Origin: Mangrovibacillus cuniculi
GTDB taxonomy: Bacteria > Bacillota > Bacilli > Bacillales > R1DC41
Direction of reading: 5' to 3'
Length of the DNA stretch: 64,000 bases
NCBI RefSeq assembly: GCF_015482585.1
Contig: NZ_CP049742.1
Location: 1,384,501-1,448,500, forward strand
Position numbers and translations under genes: made by a program. The notes beneath the pieces were generated by a model. That model did no database searches and was not told the origin of the DNA. It worked only from the letters and a program-made list of their open reading frames with translations. Every line of letters begins with the position of its first letter. The stretch's first letter is position 1. Below, in pieces: positions 11,749 to 18,900 of this stretch.

Positions 11749-13065
11749 TTACACACTTTGTTTAACATAAGGAAGGTCATTTTTTACTAGGTCCTCTAAC
11801 GATTCTCTTCTTACCACTAATCTCGCTTCCCCATTTTCCACAAACACAACTGCTGGTTTTGTTAGTCGATTATAATTACTTGCCATAGAATATCCATACG
11901 CCCCTGTACAGAACACAGCAAGTATATCCCCAGGACTGGCCTCTGGTAATGGTAGATCCCAAATCAACATGTCGCCGGATTCACAACACTTCCCCGCTAT
12001 CGCATACGTTTTTGTGTTTTCTTTTGTAGCTTTATTTGCCAAGATTGCTTCATATTTTGCATCGTATAGGGCAGGTCTAATATTATCACTCATCCCTCCA
12101 TCAACTGCTAAATATGTTCTCGTGTCAGGCACATCTTTAGTAGAACCAACTTGATATAGCGTGGTACCTGCATCACCAACAAGTGAGCGGCCAGGTTCAA
12201 TCCAAATTTCAGGCATATCCAATTCATTATTTGCAGCCACATCTTGAACATGATGGACAATTTTCTCCACGTATTGATACGGTTCTAACGGCTCATCTTC
12301 TTCTGTATATCGAATTCCAAAGCCACCACCTAAATTAAGAACAGTTGGTGTAAAGCCAACGCTCTTTTTCCAATCAGCCATTTTACCTACAATCTTATCC
12401 GCTGCTAAGATAAATCCAGTAGTTTCAAAAATTTGAGAACCAATATGACAATGTACACCTAGCACCGTAATTAAGGGTTGTTCTAAACAAAGCTGTAACG
12501 CTCTGTCTGCTTGTCCATTGTTCAAATCAAATCCAAATTTTGAATCCTCTTGACCTGTTAAGATATAATCATGCGTATGAGCCTCAATACCTGGAGTGAC
12601 CCTAATTAAAATATTTACAGGCATTTGAACTTCATTCACTACTTCTTTCAATAGTTCAATTTCAAAGAAGTTATCTACTACAATACAACCAATTCCGTAG
12701 TTTAAAGCCATGGAAAGCTCTTCTTTACTCTTATTATTTCCATGCAAATGGATTCTTTCAGCTGGGAAACCAGCTTGGATTGCCGTAAATAATTCCCCTG
12801 AAGAAACTACATCTAAAGACATCCCCTCGTCGTCCATCAGTTGGTAAATTGCCACGGATGAAAAAGCCTTACTCGCATAAGCTACTTGCGCTTTAACCCC
12901 CATTTTCTCAAACGTCTGTTTAAAGCCCCTAGCTCTTTCTTTAATTAATGCTGTATCATAAACGTAAAGAGGTGTTCCAAATTCTTTGACAAGATCAACA
13001 GTATCACATCCACCAATCTCTAAGTTACCTTGCTCATTTATTTGACCAGTACCATATAAATGCAT
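11749..13065 (-). CDS. lysA: Diaminopimelate decarboxylase
   Basis: 438 residues from ATG 13065-13063, five bases after AGGGTGG, giving MHLYGTGQINEQGNLEIGG as in B. subtilis; an in-frame GTG three codons upstream lacks a ribosome site. The PLP-binding lysine is in QVAYASKAFSSVA. HGNNKS, HCHIGSQI, the phosphate-binding GGGFGIRY loop, EPGRSLVGDAG and the C-terminal CCESGD motif complete the fold type III enzyme. It makes L-lysine from meso-diaminopimelate, the last step of the pathway. It follows the spoVA operon as in B. subtilis but is separated from it by a terminator. Confidence 0.97.
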   Translation of the reverse strand: MHLYGTGQINEQGNLEIGGCDTVDLVKEFGTPLYVYDTALIKERARGFKQTFEKMGVKAQVAYASKAFSSVAIYQLMDDEGMSLDVVSSGELFTAIQAGFPAERIHLHGNNKSKEELSMALNYGIGCIVVDNFFEIELLKEVVNEVQMPVNILIRVTPGIEAHTHDYILTGQEDSKFGFDLNNGQADRALQLCLEQPLITVLGVHCHIGSQIFETTGFILAADKIVGKMADWKKSVGFTPTVLNLGGGFGIRYTEEDEPLEPYQYVEKIVHHVQDVAANNELDMPEIWIEPGRSLVGDAGTTLYQVGSTKDVPDTRTYLAVDGGMSDNIRPALYDAKYEAILANKATKENTKTYAIAGKCCESGDMLIWDLPLPEASPGDILAVFCTGAYGYSMASNYNRLTKPAVVFVENGEARLVVRRESLEDLVKNDLPYVKQSV

Positions 13066-13095
13066 GCTCTCCACCCTTTTCTTCTTCTATAGAAA

Positions 13096-13195: not shown

Positions 13196-14680
13196 TTATG
13201 TGCTAGACTGCTTTGGCTGTTTAAATTTATTCCTTGGATGTACGATGCTAGGTCTTATTTTTGATCCTGGTACGGAACGTCTTATGATTATTTGCATAAA
13301 TGCTGCCGGATGAAATGGAAGCAATGGCCATAGGTAAGGAGTATTAAGTGACTTAATTTGAGCTAGCATGATAATAAATAATGTACAACCAATCATGAAT
13401 CCTGGTACTCCAAAAAAGGCGACAACTACTACCAAGAACAATCTGGCACTTTTATTTGCTGCACTTAACTCGTAGCTTGGTGTAGAGAATGTACCTATTG
13501 CTGCTGCTGAAACGTAAAGAATTATTTCTGGGACAAACAACCCAACATCAATGGCAATCTGACCAATCAGTACCGCGGCAACTAATCCCATAGCTGTCGA
13601 TAAAGGAGTCGGTGTATGAATGGCGGCTATCCTTAAAAACTCTATACCTATGTCAGCAATTAGAATCTGTAAAACAATCGGTATATTGGACACGTCGTTT
13701 GGCCCAATAAAAGATATCTCTTCAGGTAATAAGGATGGGTCCTGAACAAATAATAACCAAAATGGTAACAGAAATAATGATGTTATGATCCCAAGGAATC
13801 TAATCCATCTAACAAATGTTCCTACAAAGGCAGATTGACGGTATTCTTCTGCGTGTTGAACGTGATGAAAATACGTTGTAGGGGTAATAATGACACTAGG
13901 AGAAGTATCAACATATATGATGACATGTCCTTCTAGTAAATGAGTGGCCGCAACATCCGCTCGTTCCGTATACCGAACAAGTGGATAAGGATTATAGCCC
14001 TGTTTTACTAAAAATTCCTCTACTGTTTTATCTGCCATTGTAATCCCATCAATTTTAATTCCTTCGATCTCTTTTCTAATAGTTGCTACCAGTTTAGGAT
14101 CAGCTATATCCTCAATATATCCTAAAGAAACGTCGGTCTTTGAGCGTTCTCCCACTTTAAACATTTCAAAACGCAATTTCTCATCTCTAATTCTTCTTCT
14201 AGTTAAAGCTGTATTAACAATAATATTTTCTACAAACCCATCTCGCGATCCTCGTACTACTTTTTCTGTATCAGGTTCTTCTGGAGACCTACCTGGGTAA
14301 CTTCTGACATCTACAACTAACGCCTCTTGTTCCCCCTCGACTACAATTACAATAAGTCCTGAAAGTACTTGATCTACCATTTCATCAATCGATTTAATTC
14401 GCTCTACGGATTGATGTATAATACGATTTTCTACTAGCGTAAATAGTTGAGGAGTATATGGTTCATTATCATTTATTTCTACTAACTCTTCGGTGATTTT
14501 AATTAAGAAGCTCGTGTCCGTAAGACCATTTATATAATAAAATTGCACGCCCTTTTTATTTACTTGAAGTTTCCTTACACCAATGTCAAAACTCTTTTTT
14601 AAACCTACTCGTTCTTTAAAATATTCTTCAATCGCATTTAGCGACTTAGGAATAGGTTGTTTTTCCTTCGTCTCCGCCAT
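13196..14680 (-). CDS. spoVAF: Stage V sporulation protein AF (GerA family)
   Basis: 494 residues, related to the A subunits of germinant receptors. A soluble N-terminal half contains YPGRSPEEPDTEKVVRGSRDGFVENI, the GerA-family signature. The C-terminal half has about five membrane helices (for example WIRFLGIITSLFLLPFWLLF, ATAMGL-type segments and FLVVVVAFFGVPGFMIG). SpoVAF sits in the spore inner membrane and assists germination. Its start lies inside the end of spoVAEa (35-base overlap), as in other Bacilli. It is the last gene of the operon. Confidence 0.95.
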   Translation of the reverse strand: MAETKEKQPIPKSLNAIEEYFKERVGLKKSFDIGVRKLQVNKKGVQFYYINGLTDTSFLIKITEELVEINDNEPYTPQLFTLVENRIIHQSVERIKSIDEMVDQVLSGLIVIVVEGEQEALVVDVRSYPGRSPEEPDTEKVVRGSRDGFVENIIVNTALTRRRIRDEKLRFEMFKVGERSKTDVSLGYIEDIADPKLVATIRKEIEGIKIDGITMADKTVEEFLVKQGYNPYPLVRYTERADVAATHLLEGHVIIYVDTSPSVIITPTTYFHHVQHAEEYRQSAFVGTFVRWIRFLGIITSLFLLPFWLLFVQDPSLLPEEISFIGPNDVSNIPIVLQILIADIGIEFLRIAAIHTPTPLSTAMGLVAAVLIGQIAIDVGLFVPEIILYVSAAAIGTFSTPSYELSAANKSARLFLVVVVAFFGVPGFMIGCTLFIIMLAQIKSLNTPYLWPLLPFHPAAFMQIIIRRSVPGSKIRPSIVHPRNKFKQPKQSST

Positions 14681-15245
14681 TTATCATTCCACTCCTTTCC
14701 ATAATAAGCTCCACCGCTTTTCTTGTTAGCGGGGCTCCTTTTTCCGCTCTATCCCTTAAAGATATTTTCCCAATGTCTCCTATACCAACTATAAAAGGAA
14801 TATCCATAGAATCTAGAGAATAAACTGTGTCACCATTCATAATTCCAATATCAAATTCAGGAACTCCAAATTTATCTACACCATATGCCGTTAACTCTCC
14901 ATCCCTGTCTATACAAACATTGACATGTGTCCACTCTAATTTGCGTGATTTTGCCGCAACCGCAATTGCACCAATTACTTCGATTTGCTTGTTAGCAACA
15001 ATCTCTTTCATGATACTTTCTCCAGGCCCTTCCCCAATAAATCCACTATCATCAAACATAACTAGAACTGGTTCAGAAGGAGCAGATAGAATCATCGGAA
15101 TTAACTCGTGTGCCGTTATTTTAGAGGGATTGCCAGAAGATGCAGAAATACATCTACCCCCAATTTGTTTCGCCACCGATTCGACAGCTTTTCTTGCATA
15201 TTCATCTCCATCCGTTACAATAATGACACGCTTTTTTCTTTCCAT
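14646..15245 (-). CDS. spoVAEa: Stage V sporulation protein AEa
   Basis: 199 residues from ATG 15245-15243, eight bases behind GGGAG; a longer in-frame start at 15287 would run into spoVAB. It begins MERKKRVIIVTDGDEYARKAVESVA, typical of the soluble SpoVAEa subunit. GEGPGESIMKEIVAN and WTHVNVCIDRDGELTAYGVDK are further conserved parts. It is a cytoplasmic-type protein accompanying the SpoVA membrane proteins, with a role in germination reported in B. subtilis. Here it follows spoVAB directly (17 bases), whereas spoVAC, spoVAD and spoVAEb normally stand between them. Confidence 0.9.
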   Translation of the reverse strand: MERKKRVIIVTDGDEYARKAVESVAKQIGGRCISASSGNPSKITAHELIPMILSAPSEPVLVMFDDSGFIGEGPGESIMKEIVANKQIEVIGAIAVAAKSRKLEWTHVNVCIDRDGELTAYGVDKFGVPEFDIGIMNGDTVYSLDSMDIPFIVGIGDIGKISLRDRAEKGAPLTRKAVELIMERSGMINGGDEGKTTYS

Positions 15246-15262
15246 CTGGAACGCTCCCTTCT

Positions 15263-15685
15263 TCACAAACTCACATAGTAGATCCAATGAAAGAGTGAGC
15301 CCATAATTTTTCCAAATACTAGAGCCATTAGTAAATAAACAATTCTATCAGCAATACCAACTCTCTTCGCTAGTATCGGAAGCACATTAAGAGACTCCGT
15401 TAAAGCTGCCGCTAACATCCCCAAGAAAATACCATTTAATAACCCTAACGGCATAAGTAATATAGGGTATAAATGAAAACTTGGTAATTGTAATGAAAAG
15501 TAACATCCTAAAAAAACACCAAATACTACAGACCATTCGTAATAATGAATCATCTTCATTGTTTTTGTCAGTTGTGTTAGTCTCGGAATAATTCCAAGGA
15601 CTGTTAACACAGCTACAAAGCCAGAACCAACCGCTAGTCCTCCAGCAAAGGCAATTAAAATGATTAAAAGAACATTAATTGTCAT
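15263..15685 (-). CDS. spoVAB: Stage V sporulation protein AB
   Basis: 140 residues, almost entirely hydrophobic with four or five helices. MTINVLLIILIAFAGGLAVGSGFVAVLTVLGIIPRL and VPILAKR-type sequences match SpoVAB, which is about 141 residues long. I place the start at ATG 15685 rather than at the TTG just before it. The start overlaps the end of spoVAA. It is a spore inner-membrane protein of the SpoVA group involved in dipicolinic acid movement; its individual role is not well defined. Confidence 0.9.
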   Translation of the reverse strand: MTINVLLIILIAFAGGLAVGSGFVAVLTVLGIIPRLTQLTKTMKMIHYYEWSVVFGVFLGCYFSLQLPSFHLYPILLMPLGLLNGIFLGMLAAALTESLNVLPILAKRVGIADRIVYLLMALVFGKIMGSLFHWIYYVSL

Positions 15686-16295
15686 CAAGGTGTCTCATAC
15701 TCTCCTTGTTCTCATTCATTATTACGTACTGGTCTAAATCTTGTTGATAATTAAACATTTCTACTTCTAAAGGACTTGGTTCTTCGTTAATTCTTTTTCT
15801 AAAAAGATGATTAAAGAAAAGAATCATCCCTAGCCCTAACCCAAACGAGTAAGGAATTTGGAATAATAGCGGTTTAGCAACTTCTTGTCCGGTTAGTACT
15901 GTGTACAATTTTTGGTGTACTTCTGGCATACTAACATCTTCATGAAAGTTCATGATTGCTAAAGCTGCTCCTACAAACAGGAGTAACCATACAAAAACAA
16001 ACAATGGCATAGACATATGTTTTTTTTCATAGACCACTTCAATAATTGTTTGCGGAGGACCAACAGTTTGAACTTCCAAATTTGGATGTTTTGCTTGTAT
16101 GAACTGAATGACTTTCATCACATCAATAATCACAATATTTTTGTCTTCTTCTTTTACTTGGTAAACGGGAAGGTTTAATAGGTCATTTCTAATTTCTTCT
16201 GGGGCTAATACTTGCGCCATATGTCCAAGTATTACTTTTTCATTTGGTTTTACTTGAGCTCTATTTCGAAGACGAAGATAAATGATGTCAGTCAC
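15675..16295 (-). CDS. spoVAA: Stage V sporulation protein AA
   Basis: 206 residues from a GTG start behind AAAGGAGG. The N-terminal half is a soluble domain (MTDIIYLRLRNRAQVKPNEKVILG), followed by two helices at about residues 95-115 and 150-165. This matches SpoVAA. It is the first gene of the operon and follows a SigG-like promoter, which would place expression in the forespore. The protein belongs to the inner-membrane set for dipicolinate transport. Structure prediction in other species suggests that AA and AB work together. Confidence 0.92.
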   Translation of the reverse strand: MTDIIYLRLRNRAQVKPNEKVILGHMAQVLAPEEIRNDLLNLPVYQVKEEDKNIVIIDVMKVIQFIQAKHPNLEVQTVGPPQTIIEVVYEKKHMSMPLFVFVWLLLFVGAALAIMNFHEDVSMPEVHQKLYTVLTGQEVAKPLLFQIPYSFGLGLGMILFFNHLFRKRINEEPSPLEVEMFNYQQDLDQYVIMNENKESMRHLDDN

Positions 16296-16326: not shown

Positions 16327-16356
16327 TAGTATTAGGAGACGAGGGTGGAAATATGG
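16327..16356 (-). promoter_or_regulatory. SigG-like promoter for the spoVA operon
   Basis: On the minus strand CCATA (-35) is followed after 18 bases by AATACTA (-10), matching GHATR-N18-CATnHTA at 4 of 5 and 5 of 6 fixed positions. It lies about 32 bases before the spoVAA start. The spoVA operon of B. subtilis is SigG-dependent. Confidence 0.5.
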
Positions 16357-16555: not shown

Positions 16556-17335
16556 TTACTGAGCTGTATATCCCCCGTCCATTACGACTGCTTGTCCTGT
16601 TACGCCACCAGCTTGTTCACTAGCTAAGAAGCGAGCATAGTCCGCTATTTCTTTTACTTGTAGTAAACGTTTTTGTGGTACTAGAGGATAAATAACTTGT
16701 TCCAGTACCTTTTCTAATTCCACGCCACGAGTACTTGCTAAATCCTTCATTTGGTTACGTACAAGTGGAGTATCTACATAACCTGGACATAGTGCATTTA
16801 CAGTAATACCGTGCTCAGCACCTTCTAAAGCTGCCACCTTAGTTAACCCAATTACTCCATGCTTAGCACTGTTATACGCAGCTTTTCCTGCGAATCCAAT
16901 CAATCCATTAATAGAAGAAACATTTAAGATACGACCGAAGTTTTGCTTCTTCATGATTGGGAAAACATGTTTCGTCGCTATGAAAGGAGCTGTTAACATA
17001 ATCTTAATCATAAATTCAAACTTATCTGTTGGGAATTCTTCAATTGGAGAAACATGTTGAAGCCCTGCATTATTGATTAATACATCTAGTCGACCATAAG
17101 TCTCAACAGTTTTATCCACCATATTTTTGATGTCTTCTTCAGATGTTACATCTGCCTTTAAACCGATAACATCGTGACCAGCTGACTTAAGCTCGTCTGC
17201 TGCTTTTTGAACGCCTTCTTCATTAATATCTGATAACACCACTTTGGATCCAGCTTCTGCAAAAATCTTCCCGATCTCAAAGCCTATCCCTTGAGCAGAC
17301 CCTGTGATTACAACTACTTGTCCTTTATTTTCCAT
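16556..17335 (-). CDS. 3-hydroxybutyrate dehydrogenase (short-chain dehydrogenase)
   Basis: 259 residues, classical SDR. TGSAQGIGFEIG is the nucleotide-binding loop, NNAG follows near residue 90, and catalytic YNSAKHG lies near residue 154. The substrate-loop region PLVRNQMKDLASTRG and the ending AVVMDGGYTAQ closely resemble D-3-hydroxybutyrate dehydrogenases (NAD-dependent, to acetoacetate). AAGGAGG precedes the ATG. It lies 55 bases behind a GntP-type permease in an apparent operon, which suggests uptake and oxidation of 3-hydroxybutyrate. The pair is inserted between spoVA and sigF, adjacent in B. subtilis. The SDR class is certain; the exact substrate is inferred. Confidence 0.87.
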   Translation of the reverse strand: MENKGQVVVITGSAQGIGFEIGKIFAEAGSKVVLSDINEEGVQKAADELKSAGHDVIGLKADVTSEEDIKNMVDKTVETYGRLDVLINNAGLQHVSPIEEFPTDKFEFMIKIMLTAPFIATKHVFPIMKKQNFGRILNVSSINGLIGFAGKAAYNSAKHGVIGLTKVAALEGAEHGITVNALCPGYVDTPLVRNQMKDLASTRGVELEKVLEQVIYPLVPQKRLLQVKEIADYARFLASEQAGGVTGQAVVMDGGYTAQ

Positions 17336-17389
17336 CGTATATTCCTCCTTAAAATGGTATGACCAATATATTAATATGCCTTAACTCTC

Positions 17390-18676
17390 TTAATTAATCC
17401 CAAGTGATGCTAATATTACTCCGACTACTAGCGCTATAAAAGGGATAACTAACCCTACCATCGCTACATCTTTATAACTATCTTTGTGGGTTAACCCTGT
17501 TACAGCGAATAAAGTTAGCAATGCTCCATTATGAGGTAAAATGGACGCTCCAGACGCTACAGAAGCTATTCTGTGCATTGCTTCTGTACTTATTCCGGAA
17601 GCTTGAGCTAAATCATAATAGGTGGAACCTAAAGCCTCCAAAGCAATTCCCATCCCACCTGAAGCTGAACCTGTTATCATAGCTAATATCTGAACTGTTA
17701 ACCCCTCGGTTATCAAAGGGTTACTTGACACTCCTAAAATCATCTCCGTTATATTATCAAACGACGGTACTGCGGTAACTACTGCACCAAACCCTACTGC
17801 TGCACTAGTGTTAATAGTAGCCATTACAGAACCCTTTGCTCCTTCATTTATGGAAGGCACAAATGAACGGAATTTCTTGATATAAATGATTAAAATGGAC
17901 AAGATCCCTAATAGTAAAGAAGGTATTGGGTCAAGTTTGAAAACGTTTAACGTTACAACAACGACCACAAGTGGTAGTAAAGATATTATCCAATTTGGTA
18001 GACCTTTTTCTTCCTCTTCTTCTTTTGCCTCTCCATGATCAGGTTCTGTAAATACATCTCCCTTATTTGTTAATCTCTTTTGACTAAACATTAGCCAGAA
18101 ATAACCCCCAACTGCCATTATTAATCCTGTCACTATACCAATAATGGGTGCTGCCATTGCATTCGTATCAAAGTAATCTGTCGGTATTAGATTCTGGATT
18201 TGAGGTGTTCCAGGTAATGCTGTCATGGTAAACGTAAAGGCACCTAAAACCAATACGGGTGGAATTAGCTTTCTTGACACGTTTGCCTCTCTAAATAAGG
18301 AAATGGCGATAGGATAAATAGCAAAAACGACAACAAACAAACTTACGCCACCATATGTTAATAATGCAGAAGCAACTAAAACTCCTAAAACTGCTCTCTT
18401 TTTCCCAATGAATTTCGTAATTTGATGTGCAACAGCTTGAGCAGACCCTGTATCTTCCATTAGTTTTCCAAAAATTGCACCTAATAAAAATATAGGAAAC
18501 CATGTCTTAGCAAATCCAACAAAACCCTCCATATATGTATTTGTATATGTCGGTAGTAAATCTAGTCCACTTAATAAAGCTACAACCCCAGATACTATAG
18601 GTGCTATCCAGATAATGGACCATCCAAAATAAGCTAAGACCATTAAGAGTATTAAGCCGATAATGATACTAATCAA
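17390..18676 (-). CDS. GntP family permease (probable 3-hydroxybutyrate/carboxylate uptake)
   Basis: 428 residues from TTG 18676-18674, six bases behind AAAGGAGGT; an upstream ATG extension of 31 charged residues would lack this ribosome site. The protein has about twelve membrane helices and the GntP-family signatures WFPIFLLGAIFGKLMEDTGSA, TGSASGGMGIALE and LPHNGALLTLFAVTGLTHK. GntP proteins carry gluconate and related carboxylates with protons. Its operon partner oxidises 3-hydroxybutyrate, so that acid is the likely substrate. A SigB-like promoter lies upstream. Confidence 0.88.
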   Translation of the reverse strand: MISIIIGLILLMVLAYFGWSIIWIAPIVSGVVALLSGLDLLPTYTNTYMEGFVGFAKTWFPIFLLGAIFGKLMEDTGSAQAVAHQITKFIGKKRAVLGVLVASALLTYGGVSLFVVVFAIYPIAISLFREANVSRKLIPPVLVLGAFTFTMTALPGTPQIQNLIPTDYFDTNAMAAPIIGIVTGLIMAVGGYFWLMFSQKRLTNKGDVFTEPDHGEAKEEEEEKGLPNWIISLLPLVVVVVTLNVFKLDPIPSLLLGILSILIIYIKKFRSFVPSINEGAKGSVMATINTSAAVGFGAVVTAVPSFDNITEMILGVSSNPLITEGLTVQILAMITGSASGGMGIALEALGSTYYDLAQASGISTEAMHRIASVASGASILPHNGALLTLFAVTGLTHKDSYKDVAMVGLVIPFIALVVGVILASLGIN

Positions 18677-18718
18677 TGTTGTACCTCCTTTATTTTTTAA
18701 TGAACTACTACGTATACG

Positions 18719-18744
18719 TTTCCCAAAAGTCTTGTTAATCAAAC
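18719..18744 (-). promoter_or_regulatory. Possible SigB-type promoter before the GntP permease
   Basis: On the minus strand GTTTGA, 14 bases, GGGAAA resembles the SigB pattern GTTTaa-N12-15-GGGwAw. The -10 is 42 bases before the proposed TTG start. It is a pattern match only. Confidence 0.35.
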
Positions 18745-18900
18745 AAGGAAGAATGAAAAACTTACGCAAAGCTTTATTCCATACACTAGTTAATAATCAT
18801 AAGAAAATAGTAGTTATCTAATATAAGAAACGCGTTTAAGGCAAAAGTATAGTTCATACTGATCACGTAAGTACCGAAAATTTGTATGAATAAAATAAAA

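Follow-up and report, generated by a model that had tools for sequence, protein, structure and literature searches.

A missing channel core in the spoVA operon of Mangrovibacillus cuniculi

The spoVA operon of Mangrovibacillus cuniculi lacks spoVAC, spoVAD and spoVAEb, which raises the questions of which genes supply the dipicolinic acid (DPA) channel of this organism and what the remaining spoVA genes are kept for. Within the window, the stretch of 64,000 nucleotides that was analysed, a sequence-only reading had described an operon running spoVAA-spoVAB-spoVAEa-spoVAF, with a clean junction of 17 bases between AB and AEa and without the three core genes, and each part of this description held. 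All four genes lie on the minus strand and their order was confirmed by Pfam: spoVAA (15675..16295; PF12164, SporV_AA, E 2.8e-25) overlaps spoVAB (15263..15685; PF13782, SpoVAB, E 1.9e-35), and spoVAEa (14646..15245; PF14097, SpoVAE, E 3.5e-75; NCBIfam NF052647 at 299 bits against a cut-off of 200) overlaps spoVAF (13196..14680). The product of the last gene, a GerA-family A subunit and FigP partner, was assigned from PF03323 (E 3e-156), its operon position and a spoVAF model; NCBIfam gave a weak GerXA match below cut-off. Next downstream is lysA (11749..13074, minus strand), the conserved neighbour of the spoVA operon on that side. Small corrections to the first reading put the spoVAB ATG at 15685, the end of its stop codon at 15263 and the spoVAEa ATG at 15245, leaving a junction of 17 nt (15246..15262, minus strand) in the place that spoVAC-AD-AEb take in the seven-gene operon. 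The genes on both sides are intact, and the junction holds the spoVAEa ribosome site, with AAGAAGGGAG preceding the ATG. No open reading frame or remnant of AC, AD or AEb was found at the AB-AEa junction, where 17 nt leave no room for one.

The order of AA, AB, AEa and AF upstream of lysA is that of a spoVA1 operon, AC-AD-AEb are not between AB and AEa, and sigF is not directly upstream. Because the gap is only 17 nt and there is no second core in the genome, the operon is a core-less derivative of spoVA1 and not a complete spoVA1 operon. Two genes intervene between sigF and spoVAA at 16556-18769, named from the reading of their open reading frames as a short-chain dehydrogenase (3-hydroxybutyrate dehydrogenase-like) and a GntP-like permease; neither of the two was found in about 100 other spoVA loci, in which sigF is nearly always close.

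A putative sigma-G promoter upstream of spoVAA

In 86 of 91 loci spoVAA is preceded by the pattern GHATR-N16-18-CATNHTA, with at most one mismatch and mostly with CATACTA as its second half, compared to 11% of shuffles. The strict pattern had no match upstream of M. cuniculi spoVAA or of NJ, the lipoprotein gene described below. The same place as in the relatives is occupied by a degenerate copy, CCATA-18-AATACTA (16327-16356), which has one mismatch per half, is outscored elsewhere in the upstream sequence and emerges as a candidate only through comparison with relatives. On the basis of position and the motif conserved in relatives, CCATA (16352..16356, minus strand) is the probable -35 element, 18 nt from the probable -10 element AATACTA (16327..16333, minus strand; CATACTA in relatives). 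Before the NJ genes no sigma-G-like motif stood out, observed matches being close to those in shuffles, and the NJ promoter may lie further upstream.

The only channel core in the genome is of the spoVA2 type

The sequence-only reading had proposed searching the complete genome (3.15 Mb, two contigs, 98% complete) for homologs of the missing proteins, and this search returned exactly one set. One SpoVAD and two SpoVAC/SpoVAEb matches were found, all at C1:694.7-696.5 kb, in a cluster of the order lipoprotein(NJ)-AC-AD-AEb (C1:694113-696477) that lies 0.69 Mb from the operon. NJ, directly before AC, encodes a lipoprotein of 164 aa with an LVGC lipobox, which scored 160 bits with a model of the relatives' NJ and matched Pfam PF09580 weakly (E 0.0012, below cut-off); position, lipobox and the relatives' model together identify it as a predicted YhcN/YlaJ-type lipoprotein. 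The cluster stands between genes for CotZ, CotO and DUF1360 proteins and, at its other end, the gene for SpoVIF, and no DUF1657 or DUF421 (2Duf) open reading frame is present at the locus.

The origin of this core was examined with quick trees of the three proteins, in which the weight rests on the agreement of the three genes. The SpoVAD tree covers 147 loci and is divided by a single branch (support 100, length 0.76) into operon-linked copies and NJ-linked or similar free-standing copies; the M. cuniculi protein is on the NJ side, in a group of 15 from 14 core-less genomes plus one that lacks AEa. The SpoVAC and SpoVAEb trees, on few columns, gave the same split with support of 99 and 97, respectively, and again placed the M. 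cuniculi copies on the NJ side. In each tree a single branch sets the operon-linked proteins apart from the rest, without exception for AC and AEb and, for AD, with the exception of two rows that lack AEa. Judged by the sequence type of AC, AD and AEb in all three trees and by the NJ gene directly before AC, the cluster at 694 kb is spoVA2, the paralogue that the B. cereus group is known to carry. Because the three trees agree in this placement, we infer that the native spoVA1 core was lost, not moved, and that the paralogue is the only core left. The earlier suggestion that the core had moved to another locus, or that a second spoVA cluster existed, was therefore right in that the single core is elsewhere, in a second cluster, and wrong as to a move, since that cluster is the anciently diverged spoVA2.

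The core-less operon recurs in many families of Bacillales

In a sample of 150 Bacillales genomes, gene order was read around SpoVAEa, which was present in 107. The operon contained spoVAD in 71 of these, most of them with all seven genes, and consisted of AA-AB-AEa-AF in 35 and of AEa-AF only in one (G034). The 35 core-less genomes belong to 15 families, none of which also has a core-bearing operon, so that the separation of core and accessory subunits that had been proposed for this organism is real but not peculiar to it. Three further core-less loci, including those of Robertmurraya siralis and Bacillus methanolicus, came from a separate single-protein scan, their small number reflecting a scan that reaches close relatives only. 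Comparison of the AB-AEa junction with related genomes, another check proposed at the outset, showed the same junction in 37 other genomes, with a length of 13-87 nt, or 215-217 nt in family f24; because of this recurrence, neither assembly collapse nor chance accounts for it. In a tree of the four shared proteins M. cuniculi falls in a core-less clade of 31 (support 99), and the state switches 6 times on the tree, where well supported branches force at least 5 of the switches.

A spoVA2-type core is present in all 35 core-less genomes of the sample, as expected if the first channel is dispensable only when a second is owned, and among the 71 genomes with the core in the operon a second set is present in 43 and absent from 28. 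The association of core-less operon and second set (Fisher 2.5e-6) is to be read only as no exception having been seen, since relatedness makes the genomes non-independent. Intact seven-gene operons were also met in other orders of the class, together with some core-less ones, and for this reason the polarity rests on parsimony, under which loss is the simpler direction although not proven. No description of a core-less spoVA operon was found in the literature searched, which excluded subscription papers.

Reduced and hybrid forms in other genomes

Other arrangements were observed among the genomes surveyed. In family f10 the operon is AA-AB-AD-AF with a spoVA1-type SpoVAD (L187 with L271 in G009, where the type was assigned by tree, and L279 with L273 in G054), and the only SpoVAC/SpoVAEb pair in the same two genomes is of the spoVA2 type and encoded in an NJ-AC-AEb cluster from which AD is missing; the channel there seems to combine a plug of type 1 with a membrane part of type 2. 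G011 and G056 likewise have an NJ-AC-AEb cluster that lacks AD. In these two and in G039 (L180 with L272, L274 and L181, respectively) a lone SpoVAD gene, away from SpoVAC/SpoVAEb, is flanked by small DUF1657-like genes and by a DUF421-like gene, names taken from the reading of open reading frames and not from a scan. In family f29 (L275 in G071, L276 in G103) only a spoVAD fragment follows AC in the NJ cluster, and the complete gene stands at another place, close to a DUF421-like gene.

The operon is reduced to AA-AB-AF, with core and AEa both gone, in 16 genomes (L231-L237, L239, L240, L243-L249). Other orders of the class show AA-AB-AEa, and also AA-AB-AEb-AEa without AC, AD and AF (L255 in G203, L258 in G187, L263 in G231). 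One operon (L124, G015) has AEa with no spoVAF detected, and its genome has no FigP, so that both ion-channel partners are absent. Genome G139, in which spoVAB is truncated, carries three spoVA2-type cores with identical scores (C1:1910197, 2068769 and 3878088) besides the operon copy, and these resemble the three transposon-borne spoVA2mob copies of B. amyloliquefaciens DSM7 (PMC5133452).

Retained genes and a proposed explanation

The M. cuniculi genome encodes FigP (YqhR; PF11085, E 3.0e-60, at C1:1491246), DpaA and five further GerA-family A subunits, and no core-less genome of the sample lacks FigP. The germinant signal is amplified by an ion channel of SpoVAF and FigP (PMC11841064), which is known to speed germination in B. 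subtilis and B. anthracis (PMC11841064, PMC13059800). AEa has an effect on the release of DPA but none on its uptake, and mutants lacking AA or AB germinate prematurely, which deletion of gerA suppresses (PMC11841064). In B. anthracis, DPA is imported by the spoVA2 core, spoVA1-core mutants germinate like the wild type, spoVAF and figP matter most, and the NJ2 lipoprotein is predicted to cap the C2/D2/Eb2 complex (PMC13059800). By analogy, the core-less operon may be a natural end point of the division of labour seen in B. anthracis.

We give a probability of roughly 85% to the reading that the spoVA1 core was lost, that spoVA2 took over DPA transport and that AA-AB-AEa-AF were kept as a germination module. 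A clean deletion would have removed the channel core from a spoVA1-type operon, and a single spoVA2-type complex (NJ, SpoVAC2, SpoVAD2 and SpoVAEb2) would both import DPA into the forespore and export it at germination. With functions carried over from the experiments in B. subtilis and B. anthracis, SpoVAF and the separately encoded FigP would act as the ion channel boosting the signal from the germinant receptors. AEa, AA and AB would modulate signalling to, or gating of, what is now a spoVA2 channel, AA and AB thereby acting with a non-cognate core. Genomes carrying both loci, the intermediates of such a loss, are common (43/71 core-bearing genomes); the weak match of NJ to PF09580, the lack of DUF421/DUF1657 genes beside NJ-AC-AD-AEb and the core-less operons of other orders count against this reading.

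The four genes could instead be a leftover heading for loss, with little function. The degenerate promoter in M. cuniculi and the further erosion to AA-AB-AF, or in other orders to AA-AB-AEa or AA-AB-AEb-AEa, point in this direction, but 15 families with 35 genomes keep the four genes side by side, all of them intact in M. cuniculi and in almost all others, the clade of 31 is old and still keeps them, the promoter motif upstream of spoVAA is conserved and FigP is kept, so that we consider ongoing decay unlikely. It is also improbable that the four-gene operon is primitive, with the core gained afterwards by insertion in other lineages. Core-less operons in several other orders of the class would fit such an ancestral state, but seven-gene operons of the same order occur in several orders and in most families of the sample, and the operon-linked AC, AEb and AD, with the exception of the two rows noted above, form one-branch sets, as expected of an old resident core. 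A shift of the operon's own AC-AD-AEb block to another place in the genome would agree with the order kept at 694 kb, but three separate trees reject it by placing all three proteins with spoVA2, and the block is headed by an NJ gene like other spoVA2 loci, making relocation very improbable. An assembly that collapsed or omitted a core between AB and AEa, which the sequence-only reading had named as its own possible refutation and for which the clean junction and nothing more speaks, is excluded for practical purposes by the 37 other genomes with the junction, isolates of R. siralis and B. methanolicus among them, by junction sequences that differ between families and by a genome of two contigs at 98% completeness.

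Loss of the native core with retention of the germination genes, the preferred reading, can be extended further, if tentatively and at somewhat less than even odds. AA and AB would then not be subunits of the DPA channel and, with AEa and SpoVAF/FigP, would form a germinant-signal module acting on an anciently diverged channel, having stayed with AEa and AF while their own channel was lost independently several times. SpoVA would consist of two exchangeable modules that share only an operon, with parts that can be swapped between paralogous channels, as for SpoVAD1 with SpoVAC2/SpoVAEb2 in family f10.

Until now, mutants of a few species have supplied the arguments for separating the DPA channel from the other SpoVA proteins. 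Natural losses of the channel genes that recur while the other genes stay test this division independently. Core-less, non-pathogenic species such as B. methanolicus allow AA, AB, AEa and AF to be studied without a channel of their own, and a spoVA annotation made by operon position tells nothing about the presence of a DPA channel. The core-less operon is a useful natural experiment and not a new system; the probable loss, shared by many Bacillales, is backed by a known second locus.

Comparison with known spoVA systems

The M. cuniculi operon resembles the spoVA1 operon of B. subtilis and the B. cereus group (AA-AB-AC-AD-AEb-AEa-AF, between sigF and lysA) in the order of the four retained genes, the lysA neighbour and the place of the sigma-G-type promoter, and differs from it in having a 17-nt junction instead of AC-AD-AEb and the dehydrogenase and permease genes between sigF and spoVAA. 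With the spoVA2mob sets on Tn1546-type transposons (PMC5133452) the M. cuniculi genome shares an extra AC-AD-AEb set, but spoVA2mob is mobile and additional to an intact spoVA1, and no such element was seen at the M. cuniculi locus. The core cluster resembles the spoVA2 locus of the B. cereus group (PMC13059800), in which NJ is likewise followed by AC, AD and AEb with spoVA2-type sequences, although the DUF1657/DUF421 gene of that locus does not adjoin the M. cuniculi cluster. In B. anthracis, spoVA2 comprises seven genes and stands beside a full spoVA1 (PMC13059800), whereas in M. cuniculi the cluster comprises four genes and contains the only core.
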